Positions 2,950 to 17,922 of a DNA stretch of 21,319 nt are shown here, in pieces. The stretch's first letter is position 1. Each line of letters begins with the position of its first letter. The position numbers and the translations under genes are program-made. A model generated the notes under the pieces. That model had not been told where the DNA came from. It worked only from the letters and a program-made list of their open reading frames with translations, and did not search any database. Source of the DNA: a virus; the IMG/VR virus record IMGVR_UViG_3300032053_000625, positions 1 through 21,319 of that record; one strand, given 5' to 3'.

Positions 2950-3372
2950 CTATGATATGTTAATAAATGCCCCAGGAACATACGTTCCTAAATTGAATCT
3001 ACCGCTAGAATTTTGGACACCTGTATTTGTGTCGCCTATTGCTAAGATCACCGGGTCATTTGTCTCGGATGCTGCTATAAAATCGTTTACGTCTATTGAT
3101 GAATCTATATCTGTTAAAACAGAAGTCGAAGAAAGGATAGCAATAACAAAACCTGTTTTTCCTGATAGCTGAGTACAACCATACCCGGGAGGTATCAATA
3201 ATTTGATCTGCTGCCCTATCACGTAGTCTTGATCTGTTGTTGTATCTACGATGGTTTGTCTACCTAATGTTATGTCGGAAATAACGAACCGTCTAGGCAT
3301 ATAATCCGTAGGGACAGGAGGAACATTTGCGTACAACGGTACTGGATATGAAATCACTGTCGATTGTTGCAT
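2950..3372 (-). CDS. FCCH-like structural protein, partial paralogue of the decoration protein
   Basis: Start chosen at ATG 3372 (MQQSTVISYPV, 140 residues); a GTG at 3408 would add 12 residues that look like untranslated leader. About 90 residues (ITLGRQTIVDTTTDQDYVIG ... DPVILAIGDTNTG.QNSSG) align with the second half of the upstream decoration protein (ITTGTTTTIDTTTAHNFVVG ... FPQIVAVGDINTGGVQISSG). The shared unit, with its 'hg(f/y)vvGq.v.f..p..yG' phrase, is what databases often label a ubiquitin-activating E1 FCCH-like domain in phage proteins. The gene is the first after a strong terminator, so its expression may be lower than that of the capsid genes. It is likely a head or neck surface protein. 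Confidence 0.7.
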   Translation of the reverse strand: MQQSTVISYPVPLYANVPPVPTDYMPRRFVISDITLGRQTIVDTTTDQDYVIGQQIKLLIPPGYGCTQLSGKTGFVIAILSSTSVLTDIDSSIDVNDFIAASETNDPVILAIGDTNTGVQNSSGRFNLGTYVPGAFINIS

Positions 3373-3428
3373 TACGCACCGTAATTTAAATTTAACTTTA
3401 AGTTGCACTAAAAAATTTTAAATTACAA

Positions 3429-3462: not shown

Positions 3463-4593
3463 TTAAGGTAGGCTGATATCATGAAGATATGCTCTCCAAT
3501 AAATCACGTCTGAAGCTGCACCGACCAGAATAGCTGAGGCATCGCCTTCCGCTACACCTGCGCCGATTACAAAGCCTTGCGCCGTATTGTTGACGTAAGC
3601 TCCCTGTATAGCTGGACCATTTATTGTATTTACTCGTGTCGTACCGATAGGAATAGAATACGGTGGAGGATAAAGAGCTGATCCGCTAGAGATCTGCACT
3701 CCGCCAGTATTGATATCACCAACGGCCACAATTTGAGGAAATGAAAGCCCTACAAAACTTGTAAACGACTGGTTACTATCAAATGCTGTATACGCTGTAG
3801 AATCAACGTTTACAATCACTGTGTTATAATCCGTTACCGCAATCACATACCCATAAATCGGAGAACCTGGGATTGTTTGATTTGGCAACGAATTAAGCTC
3901 CACTGTCCCATATTGAGTAGGTACACGGAAGGCCACTTCTTGACCTACTACAAAGTTATGGGCTGTTGTAGTGTCAATCGTGGTTGTCGTTCCTGTTGTG
4001 ATAGCACTAATAAAATTTACACCCGGAAAGTATAAATAAGGATAAAGCACTTTCTTAAAGAACGCATCTTCTGTTGATGTTGCCGTATCATACGCAGTGT
4101 AGGCACTTTGGTTAGTGTTCCATGGTATTGTGAATGTTGTATCACCTGTTACAGTAACAGTAAAAGGCATTCCAGCTATTTGCTGCATACATGTTACGGC
4201 TGTTTGATACAAGTTATTCATAATTACAACATCGCCGGATTTTAACCCATGATTTGAAACTGAAGTTACAACAGCTGCAGCCGCCTTTGTTACAGTTGAA
4301 ATAGCCAGAGCTGCTCCATACTGAGTCAAATTGCCAGCTTCGAATGTTGTAATACCGAGTAAATCAACGGTATCCATTGTCAATTGGTTAGCTGCTTGAA
4401 AACGATCAATTACAGCGAAACCTTGACCCATGTTGAAGTCCCAATAAGCTTTAGGTACTCCATTATCGGCGCCTGAAGCTGCAGCAGAGTAGTTGATAAA
4501 TTCAACATAATCAGGTCTAAAAGGCAGATTAACTACCTGTGCTTGACCTGTAGATGTGAATTTTCCCTTCGCTAATCTTGAATATTCAGCCAT
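3463..4593 (-). CDS. Head decoration protein with two FCCH-like beta repeats
   Basis: This 376-residue protein is encoded directly after the major capsid gene. Residues 1-60 (SRLAKGKFTSTGQAQVVNLP) form a beta-rich opening. Two FCCH-like units follow: about 106-170 (VVTSVSNHGLKSGDVVIMNN ... TVTGDTTFTI) and about 196-275 (IDTTTAHNFVVGQEVAFRVP ... DYNTVIVNVDSTAYTAFD). A tail, about 285-304, is shared with the 140-residue protein encoded at 2950-3372. The C-terminus ends VIYWRAYLHDISLP. It starts at ATG 4593 with GGAGG 6 bases upstream, in the 12-base gap after the capsid stop. Position, strong ribosome site and repeat composition favour a major virion component such as a capsid decoration protein. 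There is no direct evidence of surface location. Confidence 0.65.
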   Translation of the reverse strand: MAEYSRLAKGKFTSTGQAQVVNLPFRPDYVEFINYSAAASGADNGVPKAYWDFNMGQGFAVIDRFQAANQLTMDTVDLLGITTFEAGNLTQYGAALAISTVTKAAAAVVTSVSNHGLKSGDVVIMNNLYQTAVTCMQQIAGMPFTVTVTGDTTFTIPWNTNQSAYTAYDTATSTEDAFFKKVLYPYLYFPGVNFISAITTGTTTTIDTTTAHNFVVGQEVAFRVPTQYGTVELNSLPNQTIPGSPIYGYVIAVTDYNTVIVNVDSTAYTAFDSNQSFTSFVGLSFPQIVAVGDINTGGVQISSGSALYPPPYSIPIGTTRVNTINGPAIQGAYVNNTAQGFVIGAGVAEGDASAILVGAASDVIYWRAYLHDISLP

Positions 4594-14042: not shown

Positions 14043-14216
14043 ATGTACGAAATGACAGAGAGAGAGGAGCGCGACTATCACGCGCTTCGTATAATAATGG
14101 AAGAGCACGACCTCGACATAGATGAGGCCAAGGATTTTCTCGCGGAGTTAGTGGAGGACGCAGCATATGTTTACGGTGAGTCGCTCTGTTGCGATGACAG
14201 AGATTTTGAAGATTAA
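14043..14216 (+). CDS. 57-residue acidic helical protein
   Basis: The frame opens with ATG at 14043 directly after the previous stop (TAAATG) and ends at TAA 14214-14216. The protein is helical and very acidic: MTEREERDYHALRIIMEEHD, then LDIDEAKDFLAELVEDAAYV. Tight coupling to the preceding gene supports translation. There is no recognisable domain. Confidence 0.65.
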   Translation: MYEMTEREERDYHALRIIMEEHDLDIDEAKDFLAELVEDAAYVYGESLCCDDRDFED

Positions 14217-14228
14217 CAAGGAGACAAT

Positions 14229-14420
14229 ATGTATTGGTTAAAAAATCACGGAGATACGATTGCCACGCTTGCAGTTTTTGCAGGATGTTTTTGGCATCTA
14301 AATGGAAAAATGAGCGATCGCTTGTCGGCAATCGAAAAAGATGTTGCGATAATTAAAACTGTTTTGATTATGAAAAATATCATGCCGAATGAGTTGGCAG
14401 TCAAAGAGGAAAAGAAATGA
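14229..14420 (+). CDS. Small membrane protein with one N-terminal helix (63 residues)
   Basis: AAGGAGA 7 bases before ATG 14229 is a strong ribosome site. Residues about 10-25 (TIATLAVFAGCFWHLN) form a likely membrane segment, followed by an amphipathic helix (KMSDRLSAIEKDVAIIKTVL) and a charged tail. The stop overlaps the XRE gene start (ATGA). The layout resembles small phage inner-membrane proteins. A holin-like or exclusion role is possible, though only one membrane helix is visible and no lysin gene is nearby. Confidence 0.7.
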   Translation: MYWLKNHGDTIATLAVFAGCFWHLNGKMSDRLSAIEKDVAIIKTVLIMKNIMPNELAVKEEKK

Positions 14421-14608
14421 AACCTGAAGAAATAAAAGCCCTTCGCAAAAAAATGCAGATGTCGCAAGAGAGATTTGCGGGCGATCTTGGAGTTACCACG
14501 CACACAGTAAATTACTGGGAGGCTGGTAAAGCGAAGCCAAATCAACTAAGCTTGCGGACGCTTAAAAATTATGCGAGTCTAAACAAAGACAAGGCGGTGG
14601 AGGAGTAG
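14417..14608 (+). CDS. XRE-family helix-turn-helix regulator (63 residues)
   Basis: This is a single HTH_3-type domain: EIKALRKKMQMSQERFAGDL, then GVTTHTVNYWEAGKAKPNQL, with the typical S-Q-x-x-F-A...G-V-x-x-x-T-V-x-x-W-E-x-G-x-x-x-P pattern. It is the last gene of the plus-strand mini-operon, coupled by ATGA to the membrane-protein gene, and its stop codon lies inside a terminator stem. It probably binds DNA as a dimer. Autoregulation through the half-sites at 13766-13795 is the simplest model. Confidence 0.88.
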   Translation: MKPEEIKALRKKMQMSQERFAGDLGVTTHTVNYWEAGKAKPNQLSLRTLKNYASLNKDKAVEE

Positions 14609-14627
14609 CCGAGGCTACTCTTTTTTT
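14603..14627 (+). terminator. Strong terminator of the plus-strand mini-operon
   Basis: GAGTAGCC (14603-14610) and GGCTACTC (14613-14620) form a perfect 8-bp arm pair followed by TTTTTTT. The TAG stop codon of the XRE gene is part of the left arm. Confidence 0.93.
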
Positions 14628-16555: not shown

Positions 16556-16831
16556 CTACTGCTTTCTTTTTTGCTTATCTTCCGCGAGACATTTGGCACA
16601 TTGCCACAAATAGTCTCCTTTCGTGTTTTGTCCATGCCAGGCTACGGTCATACTGCCCCCCTCATCTAAATACGTGCCATGCTCAATTGCGTATGGCACA
16701 GCGCAATCGATGCAGATACATCTAGACCAAGGATTCTTGTTTTTGTTAAAAGGCTGTATGCGGATATCTGGCTCTTTTTTCTCAAACTTCACTTCCGCCC
16801 CCTCAAATCCGGGCCTTGAAATTCGACCCAT
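16556..16831 (-). CDS. Zinc-ribbon protein overlapping the helicase loader gene (91 residues)
   Basis: ATG 16831 lies inside the 3' end of the helicase loader gene (43-base overlap), with AAGGAT 7-8 bases upstream. The Cys-rich patches CICIDC (about 38-43) and CAKC (about 79-82), with His between them, form a probable zinc site. The C-terminus is basic (EDKQKRKQ). Overlap with the loader suggests co-regulation. A replication or transcription accessory role is an inference. Confidence 0.7.
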   Translation of the reverse strand: MGRISRPGFEGAEVKFEKKEPDIRIQPFNKNKNPWSRCICIDCAVPYAIEHGTYLDEGGSMTVAWHGQNTKGDYLWQCAKCLAEDKQKRKQ

Positions 16832-17337: not shown

Positions 17338-17675
17338 GGCTCACCCATAATTTCCTTATGCAATTCAGCAAATGGAGATGATCTTGCAGAATTTATTTCA
17401 CAAATTTTCTCAAAAGACACATAATCAGGATCATTAAAATGTTTCCATGCTTCTGACATGAGGACATTAAGTTCTAACTCTTGGTCTAATTTTTCATCAT
17501 CTGACATATTTTCTTGCTCTCTTTCCCAGAGAGAGTAAGATTTTCTTTCCTCTTTTTCAATTTCTCTATACTGCATATGTTGGAAATAATTGAGCAGGTC
17601 TTGACCACTTTTAATCCAAGGTGGTACGTAGGCACATTTTCTTAGGAAATTCTCTTTATCAAATTCATATTTCAT
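17334..17675 (-). CDS. Charged helical protein of the replication module (113 residues)
   Basis: Coupled on both sides by ATGA overlaps, to the chimeric mini-protein before it and the helicase loader after it. It is acidic and helical: CAYVPPWIKSGQDLLNYFQH, EIEKEERKSYSLWEREQE, DEKLDQELELNVLMSEAWKH. No known domain is visible. Its place between initiator and loader suggests a replication-complex accessory. Confidence 0.7.
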   Translation of the reverse strand: MKYEFDKENFLRKCAYVPPWIKSGQDLLNYFQHMQYREIEKEERKSYSLWEREQENMSDDEKLDQELELNVLMSEAWKHFNDPDYVSFEKICEINSARSSPFAELHKEIMGEP

Positions 17676-17848
17676 GCGTATTTCTCCATGCTTTCTATTT
17701 TTTGGTTTTTGGATAAATGGTTCTTAAGAGCTATCCTGTACTCTTTTGCAAAGCTCAATAAGTCTTCATCGAAAATGCTTGTCTCTAAGCTAACGCCGTG
17801 AAACAGGCTCCCAATTTTGTTGTTTTTGCAGAATTCTTGCCAAGTCAT
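17672..17848 (-). CDS. 58-residue mini-protein: loader-like N-terminus joined to initiator-like C-terminus
   Basis: Residues 1-17 (MTWQEFCKNNKIGSLFH) align with the first 17 residues of the helicase loader: 12 of 17 identical, about 80% at nucleotide level. Residues 35-48 (KEYRIALKNHLSKN) align with the C-terminus of the replication initiator (KEYKIAVKNHVSKN): 11 of 14 identical but only about 69% at nucleotide level. GTGAG precedes both this ATG and the loader's. The gene lies between initiator and loader, as expected after a tandem duplication of the pair with an internal deletion. It is coupled to the next gene by ATGA, so it appears to be translated and kept. A regulator of loader-initiator contact is the obvious hypothesis. 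Confidence 0.7.
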   Translation of the reverse strand: MTWQEFCKNNKIGSLFHGVSLETSIFDEDLLSFAKEYRIALKNHLSKNQKIESMEKYA

Positions 17849-17864
17849 GCTTACTCACTTATTT

Positions 17865-17902
17865 AAAAAACCCCTGCTTTCACATTTGTCGAAGGAAGGG
17901 GT
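17865..17902 (-). terminator. Terminator or attenuator after the initiator gene
   Basis: On the minus strand ACCCCT (17902-17897) pairs with AGGGGT (17875-17870), with short inner pairing, followed by TTTTT. It is about 20 bases after the initiator stop and would reduce read-through to the loader genes. Confidence 0.65.
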
Positions 17903-17922
17903 CATTTCTTTTTTTCCTTGAA

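Follow-up and report, generated by a model that had tools for sequence, protein, structure and literature searches.

A 58-codon gene of a tailed phage that joins the start of a helicase-loader gene in frame to the end of a replication-initiator gene

Phage genomes are mosaics, in which illegitimate or unequal recombination makes chimeric ORFs. The systems that come closest to the gene described here are the helicase loaders of the DnaC/DnaI type (E. coli DnaC, DnaI; PHROG 50) and a small phage protein that targets one of them. In DnaI, self-assembly is restrained by the linker, which docks on the AAA+ domain of the same protein. This site is also occupied by ORF104 of phage 77, a 52-aa inhibitor of S. 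aureus DnaI that is coupled genetically to the gene of a phage loader (PMC4887207). DnaC loses its binding to DnaB when it is cut down to a construct that runs from residue 53 to the C-terminus (PMC9912922).

The stretch of DNA that we analysed (the window) is a whole IMG/VR virus record of 21,319 bases. As a terminase, a portal, a major head protein, a methyltransferase, a DnaD-like initiator and a DnaC-like loader are all present, the window is from a tailed phage, and it is probably incomplete. The minus strand carries, in this order, a Dcm-like methyltransferase, the initiator, a 74-nt spacer, the 58-codon gene (the mini-gene), ORF113 and loader (Table 1). Overlaps of 4 nt (ATGA) connect the mini-gene to ORF113 and ORF113 to the loader. 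It had been predicted that the mini-gene lies between its two parents, and it does stand between the initiator and the loader, but ORF113 separates it from the latter. The stem-loop of the spacer (ACCCCTTCC...GCAGGGGT plus the T run; -13.6 kcal/mol, z -0.97) was rejected as a terminator, since it is absent from the terminator scan list and its folding energy does not clearly surpass that of shuffled sequences.

Table 1. Positions of the mini-gene, its parts and the neighbouring features in the window
Feature	Positions	Strand	Remarks
Dcm-like methyltransferase	19793-19041	-	
Replication initiator, DnaD-like/O-like, 302 aa	17923..18831	-	PHROG 2514, E 1e-7; C-terminal tail is the second parent of the mini-gene
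Spacer, 74 nt	17849..17922	-	Stem-loop, then T run; includes the ribosome site of the mini-gene
Mini-gene, 58 codons	17672..17848	-	Chimera: 5' end from loader, 3' end from initiator
Loader-derived part, mini residues 1-21	17786..17848	-	W..FC..N.IG...H linker motif; 62% identity over 21 aa
Initiator-derived part, mini residues 16-48	17705..17803	-	BLASTP E 1.4e-4; predicted helix 28-47 (low-confidence model)
ORF113, 113 aa	17334..17675	-	ATGA overlap with the mini-gene stop and with the loader start
DnaC-like helicase loader, 182 aa	16789..17337	-	Linker and AAA+ only; PHROG 50, E 1.6e-31

The mini-gene runs from an ATG start to a TGA stop and encodes 58 aa (MTWQEFCKNNKIGSLFHGVSLETSIFDEDLLSFAKEYRIALKNHLSKNQKIESMEKYA). 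An ungapped alignment of its first 21 residues with the first 21 of the loader has 13 of 21 identical (Smith-Waterman score 85); for residues 25-48, the counterpart is residues 268-291 of the initiator (score 73). The maximum score was 52 in 2000 composition shuffles for the loader comparison and 51 in 2000 shuffles for the initiator comparison, so that none of the 2000 reached either observed score. When every frame of at least 25 codons in the window was compared by all-against-all BLASTP, the mini-loader (E 2e-5) and mini-initiator (E 1.4e-4) pairs were both within the three best. The latter match has 49% identity over 35 columns with gaps and connects mini residues 16-48 to initiator residues 257-291 (counted from the ATGs). 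Judged from these alignments, the mini-gene is an in-frame chimera of a loader start and an initiator end; both similarities are well above chance, which bears out the central claim of the original prediction. That prediction had placed the copied segments at residues 1-17 and 35-48. Both segments are real, but the initiator-derived part is longer and meets the loader part at residues 16-21, where the loader has FHAASV, the initiator FVPISL and the mini-protein FHGVSL. This likeness is suggestive only, and is as might be expected for a junction at a short similar stretch.

The loader-like DNA starts about 15 nt before the ATG of the mini-gene, within the ribosome-binding region, and the Shine-Dalgarno match is fair (-5.0 kcal/mol; median for all ATGs, -2.9). 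The mini-protein is not a loader, as it has no P-loop. It has no Pfam match, and unlike the DnaC/DnaI-type loaders it has neither an AAA+ core nor Walker A/B motifs. In having the 5' end of one gene fused in frame to the 3' end of its neighbour, in an order that a single join gives, the mini-gene is like other phage chimeric ORFs, and the event belongs to ordinary phage recombination. It differs from them in that both parents are replication genes expected to cooperate and that the parts are kept at the protein level. Its interest lies in these segments of two partner proteins standing in frame and adjoining both parents.

No homologue of the mini-protein was found in 50,697 phage records or in a peptide scan of viral contigs, and plasmids gave one chance-level match only (E 8). 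No PDB sequence matched up to E 10, in a short search that can miss distant relatives. The mini-gene was present in none of 50 related viral contigs (0/50), where only its N-terminal part matched loader linkers, which served as the positive control. In these 50 contigs, the initiator was matched in 5, the loader in 16 and both in only 1 (G034), a visible exchange of replication modules among the relatives. Peptide scans of the viral contigs with the loader and the initiator gave no matches, the 5 stretches retrieved by a first linker DNA pattern were all unrelated, and a terminase scan of the genome collection gave only one short contig (L102), which lacks the replication region. A match of the mini-protein to PHROG 16090 (function unknown) appeared once at E 0.01 and was not reproducible, and the same family matched nothing in the window by genome search. 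Within the searched phages, plasmids and related contigs, the mini-gene is a singleton.

The origin of the N-terminal piece was examined in relatives, for which we took the 80 viral contigs whose related terminases matched best (61-89% identity in the best segment). In one of them, L044, a loader of 275 aa was found in which ILWPLFCETNGIGDIHHKVKF connects a zinc-finger-like domain at the N-terminus to the AAA+ core; it shows the linker motif independently of the pattern search that followed. Used as a DNA pattern, W..FC..N.[ILVM]G...H matched 13 loader loci, including a second locus from the contig of L044. Six motif residues were required by this pattern, so that their invariance in the 13 loci follows from the search itself. 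Although not required, E8 is conserved in the relatives' loaders, as are, mostly, P4 and D14. The window loader begins exactly at the linker. The upstream domain of the relatives' loaders is missing from it and did not turn up in the rest of the window; the Cys-rich orf91 (16556-16831), considered as a detached zinc domain, was rejected because it did not match a profile of the relatives' zinc domains.

In the structure model of the window loader (pLDDT 86; 90 for residues 1-10; Z about 19 to DnaC and IstB), the alignment runs from the first residues to E. coli DnaC at residue ~52, DnaI (2w58) at ~112 and IstB at 54, and residues 1-10 fall where the linkers of DnaI 2w58 and DnaC 6qel begin. 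As the loader starts at the linker and its model aligns to the linker starts of DnaC and DnaI, the copied piece (mini residues 1-21) is the interdomain linker of a DnaC/DnaI-type loader and not a helicase-binding domain. The proposal that the mini-protein carries both docking peptides is not supported on this point, the N-terminal piece being the segment before the AAA+ core. Since the DnaC construct from residue 53 to the end loses DnaB binding, the phage loader, which has the same extent, probably depends on a further protein to be brought to the helicase.

Loaders with a zinc-finger-like domain followed by a W..FCE.N.IG..H linker were seen in L044, L113, L116, L117, L119, L120, L122, L124, L127, L128 and L130-L132. 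At these loci the initiator, where present, is directly upstream, and in most of its tails a [KR]FAPSS-like motif is conserved, which is a candidate for the contact between initiator and loader.

The original prediction traced the locus to a tandem duplication of initiator and loader followed by a deletion, which was thought to give exactly the observed order. It does not, because such a history would leave ORF113 between the initiator and the mini-gene, and ORF113 is found only downstream of the mini-gene. The 74-nt spacer contains no remnant of a second or decayed ORF113, its similarity to this gene being not above shuffles, though a full loss is possible. We infer a simpler path, in which a single unequal join yields the observed order if the upstream partner was without ORF113. 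Loader codon ~16-21 would have been joined, out of register and in frame, to initiator codon ~257-262. The partners may have been two copies of the same cassette or two related phages, the upstream one having the arrangement initiator-loader and the downstream one initiator-ORF113-loader. The junction would have retained the loader start together with its ribosome site, and its other end would be an initiator-type stop overlapping the next gene by ATGA.

Both parental arrangements exist in relatives. The initiator is directly followed by the loader, with a 4-nt overlap, in L044, L113, L119, L120, L124 and L127, and by an ORF113-like gene in L025, where the ORF that comes right after the initiator has 176 aa and is similar in its middle to residues 1-42 of ORF113 (E 3e-4). 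Because the ATGA overlaps of the window match the 4-nt overlap between initiator and loader in the relatives, the mini-gene occupies the site expected for an initiator 3' end. K8, N9 and S14 are common to the mini-protein and the window loader, where the relatives have E8, mostly I/M/L9 and D/N14; the donor of the N-half was therefore close to the lineage of the window's loader. The synonymous divergence of the two halves is somewhat unequal (pS 0.63 for the N-half and about 1.06 for the C-half, at few sites), which would count somewhat against an in-frame junction gene as the explanation. An intermediate or sister locus of the mini-gene was not found. We had also considered the start of ORF113 (KYEFDKENF) as the last helix of an initiator; this was rejected, as a profile of the relatives' initiator tails misses the window initiator, the mini-gene and ORF113.

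The C-terminal motif was said to be kept despite many synonymous changes, and this was confirmed: its 15 codons contain 15 nucleotide differences, 11 of them synonymous and 4 amino-acid-changing. We observed 7 synonymous differences per 11.2 sites and 11 non-synonymous per 51.8 in the N-half (21 codons), and 14.3 per 13.5 and 14.7 per 58.5, respectively, in the C-half (24 codons). We simulated a mini-gene that drifts neutrally while the parent is under strong constraint, with the same time and an equal mutation rate on both lineages. Among the runs with the right nucleotide divergence, the observed protein conservation was reached by 0.14% for both halves, 1.5% for the C-half and 11.5% for the N-half. 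The seven residues common to the window and L044 loaders (W3, F6, C7, N10, I12, G13 and H17) are all kept in the mini-protein while 8 of its 21 positions have changed (P 0.015). A mini-gene drifting neutrally from a single duplication onwards is a poor fit to the simulations (P about 0.001). The data argue against a long-decaying pseudogene, and the earlier suggestion of selection is upheld to the extent that the protein sequence is better conserved than such drift would leave it. However, conservation does not prove selection on the mini-gene itself, since a recent join of diverged relatives would carry synonymous differences from the full-length genes and so show the same pattern.

We consider it most likely, though with considerable reserve, that the in-frame junction gene has been kept as a coupled upstream cistron. 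Ribosomes would start at the loader-type site, translate 58 codons and pass via the ATGA overlaps to ORF113 and then to the loader. The open frame would be kept because a break would uncouple the replication genes, and the peptide, with its linker helix and initiator tail helix, may also touch the loader. ORF113 has a fair ribosome site of its own (-6.4 kcal/mol), and coupling may therefore not be needed, which weakens this reading without removing it. An open frame alone also leaves the amino-acid conservation of the best 15 codons (4 changes versus 11 synonymous) unexplained. A neutrally drifting mini-gene is seldom this conserved (P about 0.0014 for both halves), which favours, as a possible but doubtful alternative, a small regulator. 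The linker helix would sit in trans in the linker pocket of the loader AAA+ domain and block loader self-assembly, and the initiator-type helix would recruit or compete for the partner of the initiator, so that helicase loading is timed or limited. The preservation of all seven shared linker residues and the confident model of loader residues 1-10, aligned to the linker start of DnaI/DnaC, point the same way, and the self-docking of the DnaI linker, with a 52-aa phage protein taking that site, is a precedent (PMC4887207). The model of the mini-protein alone, in contrast, is weak (pLDDT 65). It has helices at residues 3-9 and 28-47, of which the former, as a free linker helix, could dock on the phage or host loader, and the latter could make a second contact. 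Like ORF104, the mini-protein has less than 60 aa and is encoded near a phage helicase-loader gene, and its linker-like element could likewise occupy the linker site of a DnaC/DnaI-type AAA+ domain. In ORF104, however, the element is a C-terminal strand and the target is the host loader, whereas the mini-protein has an N-terminal helix that copies the linker of the phage's own loader, and it matched no PDB chain, the ORF104-DnaI complex 5he9 included. The regulator reading also has to face that the mini-gene occurs in one genome only within the searches made, and that the conservation could come from the full-length genes if the join is recent. We infer every step of a scheme in which the peptide acts, and the full scenario, in which a recombination accident made a mini-protein with an autoinhibitory linker and an initiator tail that serves as a trans linker-mimic regulator of helicase loading, seems unlikely.

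In another explanation, which we hold to be improbable, the mini-gene is a recent inert remnant. Two diverged relatives would have been joined late, and both the synonymous divergence and the protein conservation would date from the full-length parents. The visible exchange of replication modules among the 50 related contigs fits such a history, as does the failure to find a mini-gene homologue in the phage records, viral contigs and plasmids searched. Yet the 58-codon frame is uninterrupted and keeps the register of both parents, its start resembles that of the loader, and the stop overlaps the next gene; a remnant also predicts that one half is closer to another phage, and no such donor was found. 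If inert, the mini-gene would be a clear example of out-of-register recombination of a phage replication cassette with the operon still translatable. If functional, it would be a rare new regulatory gene beside both of its parents, from which one could retrace how a recombination junction gave rise to a regulator, and a natural linker in trans would test the autoinhibitory role proposed for the loader linker.

Other features were observed in the window and in further contigs. In L005 (13594-15426), the major capsid gene is split by about 0.9 kb, inside which an opposite-strand ORF (14086-14619) resembles a homing endonuclease of the LAGLIDADG type; the split gene gave no match to an Rfam intron. 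L008 (1-5500) and L009/L010 (G004, 38.9-44.6 kb) are diverged direct copies of a block at both ends of a 44.6-kb contig, and these end blocks contain a tail-type protein rich in repeats, together with small regulatory ORFs. In the window itself, 2950-3408 and 3463-4593 encode adjacent structural-type proteins with about 33% identity over 94 residues, another partial duplication in this genome.
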